From NCBI GenBank assembly GCA_040757205.1, contig JBFLXL010000005.1:1-64000 (forward strand): a stretch of DNA of 64,000 bases, in the 5' to 3' direction. A program made the position numbers and the translations under genes. The DNA comes from Bacillota bacterium (GTDB taxonomy: Bacteria; Bacillota; Desulfotomaculia; Desulfotomaculales; Desulforudaceae). This document shows positions 39,522 through 56,101 of this stretch, piece after piece (position 1 is the first letter of the stretch; each line of letters starts with the position of its first letter). The notes under the pieces are model-generated. The model searched no databases. It had not been told where the DNA came from and was given only the letters and a program-made list of their open reading frames with translations.

Positions 39522-39762
39522 GGGCTTGCTTCTATTTTGGCAGCAGGTCGGTTGATCCTTAATATGACACCTTGCTATCCCTTATTTGACGGTTACAGCG
39601 GGATTTTATCTGATTTTTAGCTTGTTACTTTATGACATCCTGATTAAGCCGTTTTGGCAGAAGTTTGTAGCTGAGGTCAGGAGGGAAGTTCTTTAAGCGT
39701 GAAGGATTGTGGGAATATCTGCCGAATTAAAGAAGCAATAGTAGTATATGGAGGGTGCGGCC

Positions 39763-40239
39763 GTGGATCGGATGCCATTGGCGGCCGTTGTGTTGCATTC
39801 CATACCCGAGAGCGTAGTTTTGCTCAGCCTAGCGGGCGCCCTCCTCGGGGTACGCTGGAGATTCCAGTTGATATTTCCGGCTGCTGTTCTATCGGCTCTT
39901 GCGGCATGGGGTGTGCGGGCGTTGCCGCTACCCTACGGTGTTCATTCATTAATTGGCGTACTGGTGTTCACTATCCTCATCGTTGTTTTCTATCGGCTTC
40001 CCTTTCTCCGAGGTTTGATCGGTACGCTGTTTGCCTTCGGCAGCTTTGCCGCAGTCCAAGTTATTATTATACCCTTGCTGGCTCGGGCCGTTGGCGTGAC
40101 TGAGTTAAGGGATCTCTGGGCGGATTCCTGGTTACGCATCATTCTGGCCTGGCCGGAACTCATCCTGATGGCTGTGGTGGCCTGGTTCCTATATCGTTTC
40201 CGGCCTGTCCCGGGACAAAGAACTGCTCAAAGTGGGTGA
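39763..40239 (+). CDS. Multi-TM membrane protein of the agr-like locus, possible receptor part
   Basis: 158 residues from GTG 39763, which has GGAGGGT six bases upstream (ATG 39748 lies before that site). About five hydrophobic segments: VVLHSIPESVVLLSLAGALLG, FQLIFPAAVLSALAAWGV, LIGVLVFTILIVVFYRL, LIGTLFAFGSFAAVQVIIIPLLA and IILAWPELILMAVVAWFLY. It ends in a basic tail. There is no enzyme motif. It directly precedes the LytTR regulator (8 bases). Because the kinase of this locus has only two TM helices, this protein could supply the missing peptide-sensing membrane domain of an AgrC. That is inference. Possible promoter: TTGACG near 39587, weak. Confidence 0.8.
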   Translation: MDRMPLAAVVLHSIPESVVLLSLAGALLGVRWRFQLIFPAAVLSALAAWGVRALPLPYGVHSLIGVLVFTILIVVFYRLPFLRGLIGTLFAFGSFAAVQVIIIPLLARAVGVTELRDLWADSWLRIILAWPELILMAVVAWFLYRFRPVPGQRTAQSG

Positions 40240-40247
40240 GTGCAGGA

Positions 40248-40979
40248 ATGCTTAGAGCGGTGGTGGTTGAGGACCAAGTCATTGAACGGGAATACCTGAG
40301 GCAACTACTGGATGAGGCGGGCGACGTGGCGGTTATAGCCGAAGCCGGGAGCGGGCCGGAAGCGCTGGATCTGGTTACCCGCTTTCATCCCGACTTGGTC
40401 TTCCTGGACATCGGCCTTCCCGGATTGGGCGGGCTGGAGGTGGCCCGGCAACTGCTTCTCGCCGACCTTAGGCCGTTCATCGTCTTCGTGACCGTAGATC
40501 GACAACACGCCCCCGAAGCGTTTGATCTGGGTTCGGTGGACTACCTCCTTAAGCCTTACAACCGTTTGCGCCTAGCCAAAACCCTTGCCCGGGTGCGAGA
40601 AAGGATGGCTCCGCAGCGTCAGGCCGGTCGCCTTGTTCTCTCTCACAAAGAAGAGTTCCAGATAATCAGGTTAGAAGAAATCATCTTCATCGAATCTGAC
40701 AAAAGAAAGAGGACTATTGTCCATACCGAAACCGCAACATTTGCCGCCCGCCAGAGTTTGGCGGTAATCGAAGATCAACTGGTCCGTTACCCCAACTTCT
40801 TGCGCACTAGCCGCTCCTATTTGGTAAACCTTGATTGGGTGGCCAAGGTTGAGGCATGGACTAATTACAGTCTTAGAATTGTCTTTCGCAATTGCGCCAA
40901 AGAAGCGTTTCTTAGCCGCAATAACTTGGCGGAATTCAAGAGACGACTGGAAGCCTTGCCTTTTGTTCCGGGTCAGTAA
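40248..40979 (+). CDS. LytTR-family response regulator (AgrA-like)
   Basis: A receiver domain (residues 1-120) has the acidic pair in VVVEDQVIERE, the phospho-Asp in LVFLDIGLPGLGGLEVA and Lys in DYLLKPYNRLRLAKTL. The C-terminal LytTR DNA-binding domain shows EIIFIESDKRKRTIVHTE, FLRTSRSYLVNLDWVAKV and FLSRNNLAEFKRRL. ATG 40248 is preferred since GGTGAG is spaced 8 bases upstream; GTG 40236 overlapping the previous stop is possible. LytTR regulators bind paired 9-bp direct repeats with 21-bp periodicity, and such a pair lies just after this gene (40984-41013). Confidence 0.94.
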   Translation: MLRAVVVEDQVIEREYLRQLLDEAGDVAVIAEAGSGPEALDLVTRFHPDLVFLDIGLPGLGGLEVARQLLLADLRPFIVFVTVDRQHAPEAFDLGSVDYLLKPYNRLRLAKTLARVRERMAPQRQAGRLVLSHKEEFQIIRLEEIIFIESDKRKRTIVHTETATFAARQSLAVIEDQLVRYPNFLRTSRSYLVNLDWVAKVEAWTNYSLRIVFRNCAKEAFLSRNNLAEFKRRLEALPFVPGQ

Positions 40980-40983
40980 AACT

Positions 40984-41058
40984 ACATTTCGGGTCATTAT
41001 TTCTGCATTTCGGTTTTAAACCCCCCTGAATATCGTCCGCGGGATGTTACGATATACT
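40984..41058 (+). promoter_or_regulatory. Candidate LytTR operator pair and promoter for kinase-agrB-agrD
   Basis: ACATTTCGG (40984-40992) and GCATTTCGG (41005-41013) are direct repeats offset by exactly 21 bases (12-base spacer), the arrangement bound by AgrA/ComE-type LytTR dimers. A -10-like TATACT lies at 41053-41058, with no good -35 at 17 bases, as expected for an activator-dependent promoter. The kinase GTG start follows at 41082. The site is in the 100-base gap between regulator and kinase. Functional assignment is inference. Confidence 0.6.
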
Positions 41059-41081: not shown

Positions 41082-41987
41082 GTGAGGTTCCGTTCAAAAA
41101 GGCCTGTTGCTGAAAACAGCCAGCATACATGGCCTAATCAGCAACACTTTTCCCGGGCAGGCTCACTCTTGCTGGCCGCCATACTATGCCAATTGCTCGG
41201 AATCGCCCTTGTTGTTCAAGTTCTGCAATTCCACGGTTTGCTCCTCTGGTCACAAGGCTTAGTGATCGCGGCGGTGTTCATTCTCTTGCACTATATGCTG
41301 GTCCTGGCCCTCGTCGGGTGGATAATGGCCAATGAGGCCCGCCGTTTCATGCTGGACGAACAGAAGAGAGCAGTGGAGACGGCCCACGGCTTTCTCCAGG
41401 TGGTGCGGGCGCAGCGGCACGATTTGGTGAATCACCTTCAGGCACTGGCAGCCCTGTTTCAAACCGGGCGCGAAGAAATGGGGCGCAAATACCTGGGCGA
41501 AATGATCCGGGTTGGCGCCAACGCCAATGAGGCGATTCAAGGCAATGACCCCGTGCTGGCGGCTTTTCTGCAGGTTCGGGTTCATCAAGCTGCGGCGCAG
41601 GGGGTGGACTTCGAGCTGGATGTGGAAAATGCCTTCGGCCCGCTACCAGTATCCATCGCCTACGCCCTGGTCGGCGTACTGGGCAATCTCCTGGATAACG
41701 CCTTCGAAACCGTGACACCCTTGCCGGCTGCGCAACGGAAAGTAATGTGTGCCATAGCGCAATACGACAAATACTTGATCGTGCGCATTAGTGACAGCGG
41801 CCTGGGAATTGCTCCCGAACACCGGGAGCGGATCTTCAACCCCGATTTCTCTACCCGGGGTACGGGCCGGGGCCAGGGCCTTGCCCTGGTATGGGAAGTG
41901 GTGACCGGCATCGGGGGACGGGTGGAAGTCGGTGATAATCCAACCACGTTTACCGTATGGTTTCCGTTGCGGGGGGTGGCGCCGTGA
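41082..41987 (+). CDS. GHKL sensor histidine kinase of the agr-like locus (Spo0B-type)
   Basis: 301 residues from GTG 41082 (GAGGT upstream). Two adjacent TM helices (SLLLAAILCQLLGIALVVQVL and GLVIAAVFILLHYMLVLALVGWIM) precede a coil with the phospho-acceptor region VRAQRHDLVNHLQALAALFQTG. The catalytic GHKL domain shows LGNLLDNAFETV (N-box), RISDSGLGIAPEHRERIFNPDFSTR (G1 and following) and GRGQGLALVWEVV (G2). AgrC of staphylococci has six or seven TM helices, so the input part here is much reduced. It overlaps agrB by four bases (GTGA). Confidence 0.93.
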   Translation: MRFRSKRPVAENSQHTWPNQQHFSRAGSLLLAAILCQLLGIALVVQVLQFHGLLLWSQGLVIAAVFILLHYMLVLALVGWIMANEARRFMLDEQKRAVETAHGFLQVVRAQRHDLVNHLQALAALFQTGREEMGRKYLGEMIRVGANANEAIQGNDPVLAAFLQVRVHQAAAQGVDFELDVENAFGPLPVSIAYALVGVLGNLLDNAFETVTPLPAAQRKVMCAIAQYDKYLIVRISDSGLGIAPEHRERIFNPDFSTRGTGRGQGLALVWEVVTGIGGRVEVGDNPTTFTVWFPLRGVAP

Positions 41988-42637
41988 TCCGGCGTTGGGC
42001 CGAACAATCGGCGGTTTATCTGCAGACCGAGCTTGAGCTGGATCCGGCCCGGCTAAAGGTTCTGGCCTACGGTCTGGAAGCCGTCCTAGGCGGGTTGGTT
42101 CAGCTCACGGCCTTAGCCATCATACCTTTTCTGCTTGGGATCGGCCCGGCCACCTGGATGGCGGCGGGAACCGCGGCATTTTTCCGACTGCCGGCGGGCG
42201 GAGCGCACTGCCGGGCGTTTGACCGTTGCCTGTTAAGCTCTCTGAGTACCTTTATGCTGGCCGGCGCCACCAGCGTCCTGCTCACCAGCCAAATTTCTTT
42301 TCATCCCTTCCCCCTCGTCCTTGCCGTTCTGTGTGTGGCCGCATTAGCCGTTTTGCTCTATGTACCCGCGGACACGTCCGCACGCCCGATAAAAAGTCAC
42401 CGGGAAAAACGGCGCTTGAAAGCCTGGGCCTTTTTCGTGCTGGGTTTTTACCTTCTTCTCCTCCACCTGGGCATCCGAAACAACATTTCTCCGGAATTGA
42501 TTGTAGCGGGCGGCCTGGGACTGCTCATTCAGGCCTTCACCGTCACGCCCTGGGGTTACCGGGCAATAAACGCTGTGGACCAGTTCCTGGCTGCTGGGTT
42601 GGGAATCTTTACGCGCCGGGGGGAGGTGAGAAGGTGA
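41984..42637 (+). CDS. agrB: AgrB-family peptide-processing membrane endopeptidase
   Basis: 217 residues from GTG 41984, overlapping the kinase stop. AgrB cleaves and cyclises AgrD at the membrane. The conserved catalytic His and Cys of the family are seen in FFRLPAGGAHCRAFDRCLLSS, where the second element is the GGxHC motif. Five to six TM segments surround it (GGLVQLTALAIIPFLLGI, STFMLAGATSVLL, PLVLAVLCVAALAVLLYVP, AWAFFVLGFYLLLLHLGI). The 3' end overlaps agrD by four bases, so stoichiometric co-translation is likely. Confidence 0.94.
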   Translation: MIRRWAEQSAVYLQTELELDPARLKVLAYGLEAVLGGLVQLTALAIIPFLLGIGPATWMAAGTAAFFRLPAGGAHCRAFDRCLLSSLSTFMLAGATSVLLTSQISFHPFPLVLAVLCVAALAVLLYVPADTSARPIKSHREKRRLKAWAFFVLGFYLLLLHLGIRNNISPELIVAGGLGLLIQAFTVTPWGYRAINAVDQFLAAGLGIFTRRGEVRR

Positions 42638-42759
42638 AGAAACTATTGCTGACATTCGCCAGCCAGACGGCTCTGTTGGCCGCCGTGATGGTTGCACAGC
42701 CGGCCAGTTGGCTGTTCTGGCACCAGCCGGAAACGCCGGAAGAGCTAAGGAGAAAATAG
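42634..42759 (+). CDS. agrD: AgrD-like cyclic autoinducer prepeptide with Ser in place of Cys
   Basis: A 41-residue frame from GTG 42634, with GGGGAGGTGAG directly upstream, ending TAG 42759. The N-terminal amphipathic helix is KKLLLTFASQTALLAAVMVA, then QPASWLFWHQPETPEELRRK. The tail QPETPEEL is the AgrB-recognition region of clostridial AgrD peptides (xQPxxPxEL). The expected cyclic part just before it is S25-W-L-F-W29: five residues ending in an aromatic, as in clostridial five-membered rings, but starting with Ser instead of Cys. This predicts a lactone rather than thiolactone. It overlaps agrB and is followed by a terminator. Confidence 0.85.
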   Translation: MKKLLLTFASQTALLAAVMVAQPASWLFWHQPETPEELRRK

Positions 42760-42772
42760 AGATCAAATACTT

Positions 42773-42804
42773 GGGAAAGGGGCAAAAAGGCCCCTTTCCC
42801 TTTT
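42773..42804 (+). terminator. Strong terminator ending the agr-like operon
   Basis: GGGAAAGGGGC (42773-42783) pairs perfectly with GCCCCTTTCCC (42790-42800) around a 6-base loop, followed by TTTT. It is 14 bases after the agrD stop, supporting agrD as the true last gene of the operon. Confidence 0.85.
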
Positions 42805-42915: not shown

Positions 42916-43716
42916 CTATATGAGCTCTCCCTGAATCACCCGCTTTACCATATGGTCGTCAACGATTCGGTTGCCGTTCTGCGCCCCGTAAATCAGGCAA
43001 TGGGTACAGGCCTTGTTGATCAATCGCGGGGCTCCGGCTGAGAAACGAAAGACCTCATCCAACGCCCCATCCGAGAAGATGTCTCGGTCCGCACCGGCGT
43101 AGGCCAGGTGCCGTTTTACGTACTCGCCGGTTTGCGCCCTGTCCAGGTAGGTTAGTCTGCACTGCAAGTCGATGCGTTGCCGGATGGCGGCGTAGGCCTG
43201 GAGTCGGAGCCGTTCTAAAAGCTCGCTCTGCCCGACCAGGATGAGGGCCATGGGGCTTATGGAGTCCATCTTGAAGTTGAGGAGAAACCGGACCTCTTCC
43301 AGCATCTCCTTATCTAACAAGTGGGCTTCATCCATGATCACCACCGGCTGCAAGGAATGAACGCCCCGCATCAACTCGATCTCCCGGTGCAGTTGGCGCT
43401 TGGCATCGCCCCGGTAGAACTTGGCTTCGCACCCCAACTGTTCCAGCAGGCCTTTGTAGAAATGCCGGGGCGTCAGCTTGGAATCTGCCAGGTACATAAC
43501 CAGAAACCGGGCCGGGTCGAGGGTATCCTTGAACCGCCGGATGGCGGTGGTATTACCGGTCCCGCTGTCCCCAGTGAACACAATAAACAGTTGGCGCTTG
43601 GCGGCATGTTCCAGTCTGCCCAGTGTCTCTTCCAGCATCACGGACGGGTACAACTGGCCTGTCGGAATGTCACGGGTGAACGGGGTATGGGCAAGACCGT
43701 AGAATCCTTCAAACAC
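42916..43716 (-). CDS. Transposon AAA ATPase (TniB/ExeA-like) with altered Walker A
   Basis: 266 residues from GTG 43716, overlapping the transposase stop by 8 bases. The N-terminus FEGFYGLAHTPFTRDIPTGQLYPS is typical of ExeA/TniB-like ATPases that select transposition targets. Walker A reads GDSGTGNTTAIRR: the usual Lys (GKT) is Asn, which should abolish or weaken ATP binding. Walker B is VVIMDEAHLLDKEM and the sensor region is ILVGQSELLERLRL. The reading frame is otherwise intact. The context is the transposase just upstream, so an ordinary secretion ATPase is unlikely. Confidence 0.85.
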   Translation of the reverse strand: MFEGFYGLAHTPFTRDIPTGQLYPSVMLEETLGRLEHAAKRQLFIVFTGDSGTGNTTAIRRFKDTLDPARFLVMYLADSKLTPRHFYKGLLEQLGCEAKFYRGDAKRQLHREIELMRGVHSLQPVVIMDEAHLLDKEMLEEVRFLLNFKMDSISPMALILVGQSELLERLRLQAYAAIRQRIDLQCRLTYLDRAQTGEYVKRHLAYAGADRDIFSDGALDEVFRFSAGAPRLINKACTHCLIYGAQNGNRIVDDHMVKRVIQGELI

Positions 43717-45065
43717 TGCCGTCGACCTCCCGCTTGCGAGTTGACCGGTAGGAAACGGCGGGAATCTGCAGGTTTTTGCGCTGCTGGTGCCTTAAGCGTG
43801 CTGCCGTCAAAAGCCTCGATGATGCCGCCGGCTCTTGCTGCAGATGCTCTGGCAGTCGCGGACGCTTGCCGGTCTGCTCGCCAATGACCAGTGGCTTAAC
43901 CGTAAAGGCGTGCCCCTCGTACTCGATGGTCAGGGCGGCGGTATCAGCCGGGTCGTAGACGACATCCACCTTGCAGCCGATAAAATTCAGACCGACCTCG
44001 TACTTTTTGCCCGCGAAGCTGATGCAGCCCGCCTTGTCAACCTTCCTGTCCTCGCAGTGCAGAAAAGCAGATGCGACAGTTTCGGCATCCAAAAACCTGA
44101 TCGCCTTGCTGTCACTCTGGTAAGCGGCAGCCGGGCTCCGGTTGTTCTCCAGAGCTGAATGGGGCTTGTTCTGGTAACACTCCTCCAACCAGACCCAAAA
44201 CAGCGCATTGAGCTTGTCCAGCGACTGCGGTTTCTCCAGGGCCGCCTCGGCCAGGAAGGCATCCACCACTCGGTTGAACCGCTCCACCTTGCCCGTTGCT
44301 TCCGGAGCATACGGCTTGGCAAAAAGCAACCGGATCCCCATCTTGGCGCAAGCCCGGGTCATCCATTTGGTCCGGTACTGTTTACCGTTGTCAAAAAACA
44401 CCGCTTCAGGCGTCCCGTACTTCCGGATCGCCTGGCGGAAACAGTCCTCGACGAATGCGCTGCTCCAAGGTGGGGTAGAACTCTCCGTGCACAATGAAGC
44501 GGGTGGCGTCGTCAAAGAAGGATACCAGATAGACCTGTTTCCTGGCGCCATCCGGGCCGATGGGCAGGTACGGCCCATACTTGATGTCCGAGTGCCAGAG
44601 CTGGTTGCGGTACCGCTTCTGAAACCGCCGGGCGGCAACGCCGGTATCCGCGTACATGCGCATGTGCCGGGCACTGTAGCCCTTCTCCACCAGTTTCTCC
44701 TGCAAGGTGCTGCGTTTGATCCGACCGGGTTCAACGAGCCCTTCCCACTCCAGGACCTGAATGATCTGCGCGACACTTCTTCCCGGCACCTCGCGGCGCA
44801 AAAGGACGGCCTGCTCCAGAACGTTGGCCGGGACGGCCTCCCTGTTCAGGCGTTCACCTTTACCCTTGGGCTTGAGGCCCCCGAACCCGTTTTCCCGGTA
44901 CCGGGCCAGGTACCGGCGCAAGGTACGCTCGGATATCCCGGTCTGTGCGCAAATCTGGGCCTTAAGTATTTTGGCTTTGGCCGCATCCACGCCTTCCGCC
45001 AACAGCGGGGACAAAAGCTGTATTCGCTCGGCGGCGATTTCTTCGGCCTTCCGGTGGTCTCTCAT
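43709..45065 (-). pseudogene. DDE (rve-type) transposase, frameshifted
   Basis: The N-terminal part from ATG 45065 (GAGGAGGG upstream) has an HTH domain (KAQICAQTGISERTLRRYLARYRENGFGGL) and the first catalytic Asp in NQLWHSDIKYGPYLP and FFDDATRF. After FYPTLEQ the frame shifts. The continuation in another frame starts AFVEDCFRQAIRKYGTPEAVFFDNGKQY (second Asp) and ATGKVERFNRVVDAFL (Glu), and runs to 43709. One extra base near 44458-44465 explains it. All three DDE residues are present if the frames are joined (about 450 residues). The short HTH-rve-C-terminal beta-barrel plan resembles the Mu/TniA/IS481 group. Confidence 0.85.
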
Positions 45066-45116
45066 GCCAAACGCCCTCCTCGATAGTTGATTTGGCACGA
45101 GTCTATACAGGAGCCG

Positions 45117-55089: not shown

Positions 55090-55213
55090 CTCTCTTGGCT
55101 CGATTGCACCATAACAGATAATTCCAGAGCCGGAATTTATGATAGTTTAACCGACAAGCATACTCCCGCGGAAATCAATGCGAAATTCGCGGCTCGCGGC
55201 GGACCGCGCAGAA

Positions 55214-56101
55214 TCACGTGACGCGGTCAACACCCCGGAATTCTCCGCGCAAAAGATTCGGCGGCCGCTCAGCGGCGACGACTTCTCCGCCGGACTTGAT
55301 TCCCCCGCCGGCCCGGATATTTTTGCCGGCCCGGATGTCGGCGCCGGCCTCGATGTCCTGGTCGGCATAAATGCCCATGCCGGCCTGGACGTGCCTGGCG
55401 GTCTTGATGGTCCCGCCGGACTGGATATTTTTGCCGGCCCAGATGCTCCCGCCGGCCTGAAGGTCCCCGCCGGCTTGGAGGTCCCCGCCGGCCTGGATGT
55501 TCTCGCCGGCCTCGATGTTCTCGCCGGCCTGAATGCATCCGCCGGCCTGAATGCTTGCACCGGCCCGGATGCGCTCGCCGACCAGGACACCGCCGACCTC
55601 GATTTCCCCGCCGGCCTGGATGCCCGCGCCGGCCTCGACATCCTGGCTGGCCAGGATTTCCCCGCCGGCCTGGATGTTCTCGCCGGCCTTGATGTTGCCG
55701 CCCGCCCGGATGTTCTCGCTGGTCCGGATATTACCGCCGCTCAGGGTACCGCCGGCCTCGATGTCCTTACCGGCCTCAATGTCCTTGCCGGCCTCGACGT
55801 CCTTGCCAGCCTCGATTCCCCCGCCGACCAAGAGTGACTTGGCCGCCTTGATCGAGCTTTTCGCGACAATCGAGCCCGCGAAAAACAGGTTTTCAACCAC
55901 CAGATCCTCGATCTCCAAGACGGCGCTCGTTGGACCCGCTTCCCGCATCAACCAGACCGCCCAATCGGTGCGGTCTTCCACGGCCAACACGTCCAAAACG
56001 GCCTGGTATTCCAAGCCGCCCGGGAAGCGATTTTTGAACGCCTCCCGCATTTCGGCGGGGGCTTCTTTTTCAAGGAGCCATTTCGCCGTGATCACGGTCA
56101 T
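55214..56101 (-). CDS. Hexapeptide-repeat (I-x-A-G-x-x) protein, predicted beta-helix
   Basis: 295 residues from ATG 56101 (GGAGGAGA upstream). Residues 1-60 are a small globular part (TAKWLLEKEAPAEMREAFKNRFPGGLEYQAVLDVL) resembling N-termini of other repeat proteins. From about 70 to 285 there are roughly 33 six-residue units of the form I-x-A-G-x-x, for example DIEAGK, NIRAGG, NIQAGG, SIQAGG. The 18-base DNA period is obvious. Period-6 aliphatic repeats make left-handed or bactofilin-like beta-helices, so the protein should be a long rigid rod. It has no signal peptide or TM. Function unknown. The strong DNA repeat makes length variation likely. Confidence 0.85.
   Translation of the reverse strand: MTVITAKWLLEKEAPAEMREAFKNRFPGGLEYQAVLDVLAVEDRTDWAVWLMREAGPTSAVLEIEDLVVENLFFAGSIVAKSSIKAAKSLLVGGGIEAGKDVEAGKDIEAGKDIEAGGTLSGGNIRTSENIRAGGNIKAGENIQAGGEILASQDVEAGAGIQAGGEIEVGGVLVGERIRAGASIQAGGCIQAGENIEAGENIQAGGDLQAGGDLQAGGSIWAGKNIQSGGTIKTARHVQAGMGIYADQDIEAGADIRAGKNIRAGGGIKSGGEVVAAERPPNLLRGEFRGVDRVT

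Follow-up and report, generated by a model that had tools for sequence, protein, structure and literature searches.

Whether an AgrD precursor in which a serine stands at the position expected to close the autoinducer ring belongs to a complete signalling system, or is a recent accident in a single genome, is the question raised by a locus of the Desulforudis group. The locus lies in a stretch of 64,000 nucleotides, called the window here (positions 1 to 64,000 of contig JBFLXL010000005.1, assembly GCA_040757205.1), and its agrD had been singled out in an earlier note made from the DNA letters. The host is a deep-subsurface anaerobe of the Clostridia with a complete peptide-signalling operon. 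The reading that we favor, at a probability of roughly 0.78, is that of a complete agr circuit of a Ser-type lineage, combining a serine lactone, an AgrC receptor made up of two proteins, and autoinduction via a LytTR regulator. The argument is built on sequence comparison, namely on gene identities, the conserved serine, gene order, the correspondence between split and fused receptors, and the repeats.

The agrD Gene and Its Precursor Peptide

The agrD gene (42634-42759, + strand) encodes a 41-residue precursor, VKKLLLTFASQTALLAAVMVAQPASWLFWHQPETPEELRRK, which is devoid of cysteine. Its start codon, a GTG at 42634, lies in a four-base overlap with the end of agrB (stop codon TGA, 42635-42637), and GGGGAGGTGA, a good ribosome-binding site, is located directly 5' of it. 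An intrinsic terminator with an 11-bp stem, a 6-nt loop, and a TTTT run follows the gene (42773-42804, + strand); its hairpin (42773-42800), folded with its flanks, gives -26.2 kcal/mol (z = -3.06). A 41-codon gene overlapping agrB, with a strong ribosome-binding site and a strong terminator, had been described in the earlier note, and these features are confirmed, as are the serine at the ring position and the lack of cysteine in the translated ORF.

The precursor scores 43.4 bits against the TIGR04223 profile, above the cut-off of 19, and its E-value of 3.4e-10 in a search of the whole genome excludes a chance match; just two AgrDs of the genome exceed the cut-off, this one among them. Membership of the family is further indicated by adjacency to agrB and by a Cys or Ser residue five positions before a [YH]QPxxP motif. 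Here, this residue is Ser25, five residues N-terminal of HQPETP, in a region that reads ...VAQPASWLFWHQPETPEELRRK. The sequence supports a predicted ring S25-W26-L27-F28-W29 (SWLFW) closed via the serine, presumably through a lactone bond.

The overlapping agrB gene (41984-42637, + strand) encodes the processing endopeptidase. It matches PF04647 with 101.5 bits (cut-off 23), and the G72 G73 H75 C82 set, which includes the catalytic His75 and Cys82, is invariant across the clade described below. Outside the genome, the nearest locus is that of Desulforudis sp. isolate SURF_60 (contig QZIR01000051.1), with an identical ring, SWLFW, and an AgrB 77-79% identical to that of the window.

Between agrD and its orthologue, dN is 0.09-0.13 and dS 0.34-0.74, rough values for so short a gene, which indicate that agrD is under purifying selection. 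The operon might nonetheless be decaying or silent, with Ser25 as the relic of a broken Cys-type AgrD, and transposase-like ORFs just 3' of agrD would fit such a history. This is very improbable, in view of the dN values below dS, the serine kept over the lineage, the five intact genes, and the conserved repeats; a maintained Ser-type system is thus preferred. The neighboring ORFs (42916-45098, minus strand), AAA-ATPase-like and transposase-like, perhaps form a transposon. Farther along the window, at 55178-56101, overlapping ORFs on both strands contain long runs of short repeats (AGxDIxAG-type); the minus-strand repeat ORF, of 295 aa, may encode a beta-helix repeat protein.

Conservation and Spread of the Ring Serine

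When 101 AgrBs of the order are placed in a tree, the window sequence groups within a clade of 19 rows (SH-aLRT 95) with Ser in all 19, and a larger tree, of 142 rows, recovers this all-Ser clade. Lys2, Pro23, Ser25, Gln31, Pro32, Pro35, and Leu38 of AgrD are invariant in the clade, and ring positions 2-5 vary freely (SWGLW, SWVTW, STWFW, SVGSF, SLCTL). The Ser25 codon is TCT in two members and AGY in the remainder; hence, the residue has been retained through a change of codon class. The earlier note had called for a comparison of the agrD genes beside close AgrB homologs, to see whether Ser is conserved, and Cys in all close relatives would have refuted it. This outcome is not borne out: Ser25 and Pro23 prove invariant in the 19 members, and a lone recent Cys-to-Ser change is ruled out by the all-Ser clade. 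Three members of the clade (L068, L073, and L087) have a Cys two residues past the Ser, SLC[TS]L (SLCTL, SLCSL), which makes the ring-closing residue ambiguous in these peptides. Two other AgrDs (L093 and L100), once classed as other/Ser, were reclassified as Cys-type: in both, Cys precedes the QP motif by six residues (CNLWVW, CSWGFL), and six-residue rings are predicted.

Carriers of Ser-type AgrDs include Desulfofundulus, Desulfovirgula, Desulforadius, Moorella, Thermanaeromonas, and Brevibacillus massiliensis. We compared 142 AgrB loci, gathered as three differently drawn samples (by AgrD, AgrB, or 5-TM similarity) and not as a census. An AgrC-type kinase is adjacent to agrB at 59 of them, 47 with Ser and 12 with Cys. 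The other 83 have a 5-TM protein without an adjacent AgrC-type kinase, and all 83 are Cys-type (0 Ser). Among sampled loci with an adjacent kinase, Ser-type autoinducers are therefore the rule and not the exception, and the rarity that had been ascribed to them does not hold here. The same counts (47/59 vs. 0/83) led us to consider a functional coupling between Ser and the adjacent kinase, which we rejected: in the AgrB tree, one branch sets all of the Cys-only group apart, giving 1 independent pair, and an association resting on a single evolutionary contrast cannot be read as functional coupling.

At least four supported Ser/Cys changes have occurred among the kinase-bearing loci. One of them separates the sister AgrDs of L191 (5995-6156) and L192 (5977-6138), with rings SFFWF and CFFWF that differ solely by Ser vs. 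Cys. This natural O/S swap provides a direct test of the effect of the replacement on stability and on receptor choice.

It had also been speculated that an oxygen ester would suit an anaerobe, where thiol exchange is a problem. The thiol problem fails to explain the serine, because the same genome also encodes a Cys-type AgrD, and of the 23 Ser-bearing genomes that we examined, at least 17 contain Cys-type AgrDs as well (our own count). On the same count, the idea that Ser suits anaerobes or hot habitats is unsupported. The Cys-type AgrD of the genome (ring CGWLH, ...SASACGWLHYQPRPP, G000:C5:79200-79274) belongs to a second agrBD (G000:C5:78446-79837, corresponding to L041:4447-5838), which is followed by its own 5-TM copy; no adjacent AgrC-type kinase was seen at that locus.

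An Apparently Split AgrC Receptor

A multi-TM sensor and a SPOB/GHKL kinase, expected within a single AgrC polypeptide (the AgrC of S. pseudintermedius/intermedius is one protein), are found here in two ORFs, with the regulator gene between them. The first ORF (39763-40239, + strand) encodes a 5-TM membrane protein, the candidate sensor half. Its GTG start at 39763 is preferred to an alternative ATG at 39748 because VDRMPL fits the consensus MDxMPL of fused proteins. The second ORF (41082-41987, + strand) encodes the kinase half, a protein of 301 aa with two TM helices by hydropathy, SPOB_a (PF14689), and HATPase_c (PF02518). The gene order 5-TM, 2-TM kinase, agrB, agrD is found in 19/19 Ser-clade loci, and the regulator gene stands between the 5-TM and kinase genes in the window and in its orthologue.

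The AF2 model of the 5-TM protein is of high confidence (pLDDT 95.7, pTM 0.89), and no match to Pfam or NCBIfam profiles was found. In its homologues, E14, G57, H59, and P129 (numbering of the aligned stretch) are nearly invariant. Most agr loci of this order encode such a homologue, some of them two. Homologues occur at 87 of 111 loci with short flanks, many of the rest being cut by the locus end, and four loci (L055, L061, L091, and L099) have two different copies in tandem. No PDB fold match of weight emerged: a Foldseek search gave a best E of 3.4, and fold comparison gave VIA Z values of up to 6.3, within the chance range for helical bundles. In BFVD, the predicted structure of A0A8S5PKY4 (Siphoviridae sp. 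ctOSJ35, 165 aa) has a 5-TM-like fold (TM 0.66, E 0.04), and this protein may represent a phage-encoded version of the sensor subunit; a search of phages for full-length AgrC-like proteins that include the sensor half returned kinase-half matches alone.

The link between the two ORFs comes from relatives in which sensor and kinase are fused (about 23 ORFs, 440-496 aa, most beside agrB and agrD). In hhalign comparisons with these AgrC-like kinases, the 5-TM protein corresponds to residues 2-151 (E 5.5e-36) and the 2-TM kinase to residues 166-448 (E 6.3e-77). The two halves are consecutive on the fused protein, without overlap and with a 14-residue gap, at which the predicted structure of the fused protein has a low-confidence linker (156-167, pLDDT < 50). 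Both halves are thus homologous to fused proteins adjacent to agrBD, and the kinase half of one fused relative matches S. aureus AgrC. The receptor therefore appears to be split into a 5-TM sensor protein and a 2-TM kinase, which would assemble with each other.

Alternatively, the 5-TM protein could be an accessory or immunity-like protein, encoded beside agrBD by chance, and not a receptor half. Most Cys-type loci do carry it without an adjacent AgrC-type kinase, and some copies adjoin kinases that themselves contain several TM helices. Since the protein matches the N-terminal half of fused AgrC-like kinases, and since the partner kinase in the Ser clade is devoid of those helices, we regard this role as unlikely and retain the sensor half. 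We give even odds to a wider proposal, in which the AIP receptor of many Bacillota would be modular, with a free 5-TM AIP-sensing subunit, and in which the Ser-type lactone, far from an exception, would represent an ancient half of the agr family of these organisms. The corresponding pairing, of the 5-TM protein with a separate 2-TM kinase in the Ser lineage and with other kinases in the Cys lineage, is an equally balanced proposition. If the split is real, a confidently predicted sensor of about 158 residues becomes available for ligand studies in which the kinase is left out.

The Regulator and the 21-bp Repeats

The gene located between the two receptor halves (40236-40979, + strand) encodes an AgrA-like response regulator with a receiver domain (PF00072, 5.5e-20) and a LytTR domain (PF04397, 9e-20). 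As expected for AgrA, 21-bp-spaced direct repeats accompany these domains at the agr promoter. Three copies, TTCCGGGTCA / TTTCGGGTCA / TTTCGGTTTT, form a predicted LytTR site at 40966-41013 (+ strand), between the regulator and kinase genes, the first overlapping the end of the regulator gene. A 21-bp period is what the paired LytTR domains of AgrA-type regulators bind. Zero-mismatch pairs of the repeat, including the 8+8 pattern, are found nowhere else in the 2.03-Mb genome, and the repeats are retained in the orthologous locus of SURF_60. When the best repeat period was determined for 33 related upstream regions, 21 bp came up most often (12.0/33 vs. 3.1 for the next).

The presence of three repeats 5' of kinase-agrB-agrD, genome-unique at zero mismatches, suggests autoinduction, and the transcript of these three genes is the likely target of a putative regulation by the bound regulator. 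When the repeat was used to search the genome for a regulon, the agr promoter was the sole perfect site and other matches were near the control level. A promoter scan 5' of the kinase found no sigma-70-like site.

Proposed Circuit and Mature Signal

From these features we infer the ring chemistry, the assembly of the receptor halves, the binding to the repeats, and the direction of regulation. AgrB, using His75 and Cys82, would cleave AgrD behind Trp29, the acyl group would pass to the Ser25 hydroxyl, and the resulting five-residue lactone, SWLFW, would be released from the cell. The two-protein AgrC, in which the 5-TM subunit (39763-40239) is combined with the 2-TM kinase (41082-41987), would sense this signal. 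Its kinase would phosphorylate the LytTR regulator (40236-40979), which would bind the three 21-bp-spaced repeats and raise kinase-agrB-agrD transcription.

The SWLFW lactone is perhaps not the final species, because tail-less lactones hydrolyze and rearrange slowly at pH 7; indeed, when a tail-less pentameric AIP was studied as its lactone analogue, 22 h at 37 C left 36% of it hydrolyzed and 48% rearranged (PMC11297923). Either the lactone or a homodetic ring could thus be the active species. In the second case, the lactone would be an intermediate, and an O-to-N acyl shift by the free N-terminus of Ser25 would give head-to-tail cyclo(SWLFW) as the signal. Pentameric tail-less (thio)lactones do rearrange spontaneously, as the 48% shifted in that study illustrates, but in the lactone this shift proceeds slowly, and the peptide of C. 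thermocellum was described as a lactone (PMC5322536), which makes the homodetic signal doubtful.

The mature signal could also keep an exocyclic tail containing Pro23 (for example QPA-SWLFW), as do the S. pseudintermedius AIP and GBAP. The invariance of Pro23 in the Ser clade and the tails of the known Ser-type AIPs of Staphylococcus and Enterococcus speak for this form; however, the C. thermocellum AgrD, with the same numbering, has a predicted cut between A24 and S25, and a tail-less ring was found (PMC5322536). We give the tailed form no greater weight than the homodetic ring, and the Ser-closed SWLFW lactone, as the earlier note had proposed it, stands as the predicted product.

Comparison With Known Systems

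The closest precedent is the AgrD of C. thermocellum, Clo1313_2818, for which LC-MS/MS against a synthetic standard identified an S25-F29 lactone (Verbeke et al., 2017; PMC5322536). With a lactone pentapeptide proven in this organism, the lactone idea is sound, and it is not new as chemistry. As is predicted for the window peptide, this AgrD, from a thermophilic clostridium, gives a pentapeptide lactone at Ser25 and is cut before residue 30. The two precursors share Pro35; in C. thermocellum, Y30 and P35 follow the ring (PMC5322536). The rings differ at least at residue 29, which is Phe in C. thermocellum and Trp in the window. The genetic context also differs, as the authors found no agrB, agrC, or agrA beside agrD (PMC5322536), whereas the window clusters all of them. 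The C. thermocellum lactone had neither a known processing enzyme nor a known receptor, and the lineage of the window offers the full set.

Reviews treat Ser-type autoinducers as exceptional and name S. pseudintermedius and E. faecalis. In the S. pseudintermedius/intermedius AIP, as in the predicted window peptide, Ser replaces Cys to close a lactone (Ji et al., 2005, as cited in PMC3673130). As presented there, this AIP is a nonamer with an exocyclic tail and is exceptional for a staphylococcus; in the case of the window, Ser characterizes an entire lineage. The FsrBDCA system of E. faecalis also combines a Ser lactone, GBAP, with partners of the AgrB, AgrC, and AgrA types. In contrast to the window peptide, GBAP has 11 residues with a ring of nine, and fsrD lies inside fsrB (PMC3673130; PMC12312760).

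Beside the lineage-wide preference for Ser and the complete gene set, what looks new is the split receptor. No report of a natural split AgrC was found among the open-access papers searched. In S. aureus, sensor and kinase belong to one chain, unlike in the window. However, a truncated S. aureus AgrC, TM5-6C (297 aa, residues 134-430), which has only the last two TM helices, kept kinase activity (PMC3841183). In its SPOB/GHKL-type kinase, its size, and its layout, this construct resembles the 301-aa kinase of the window, which would be its natural counterpart.
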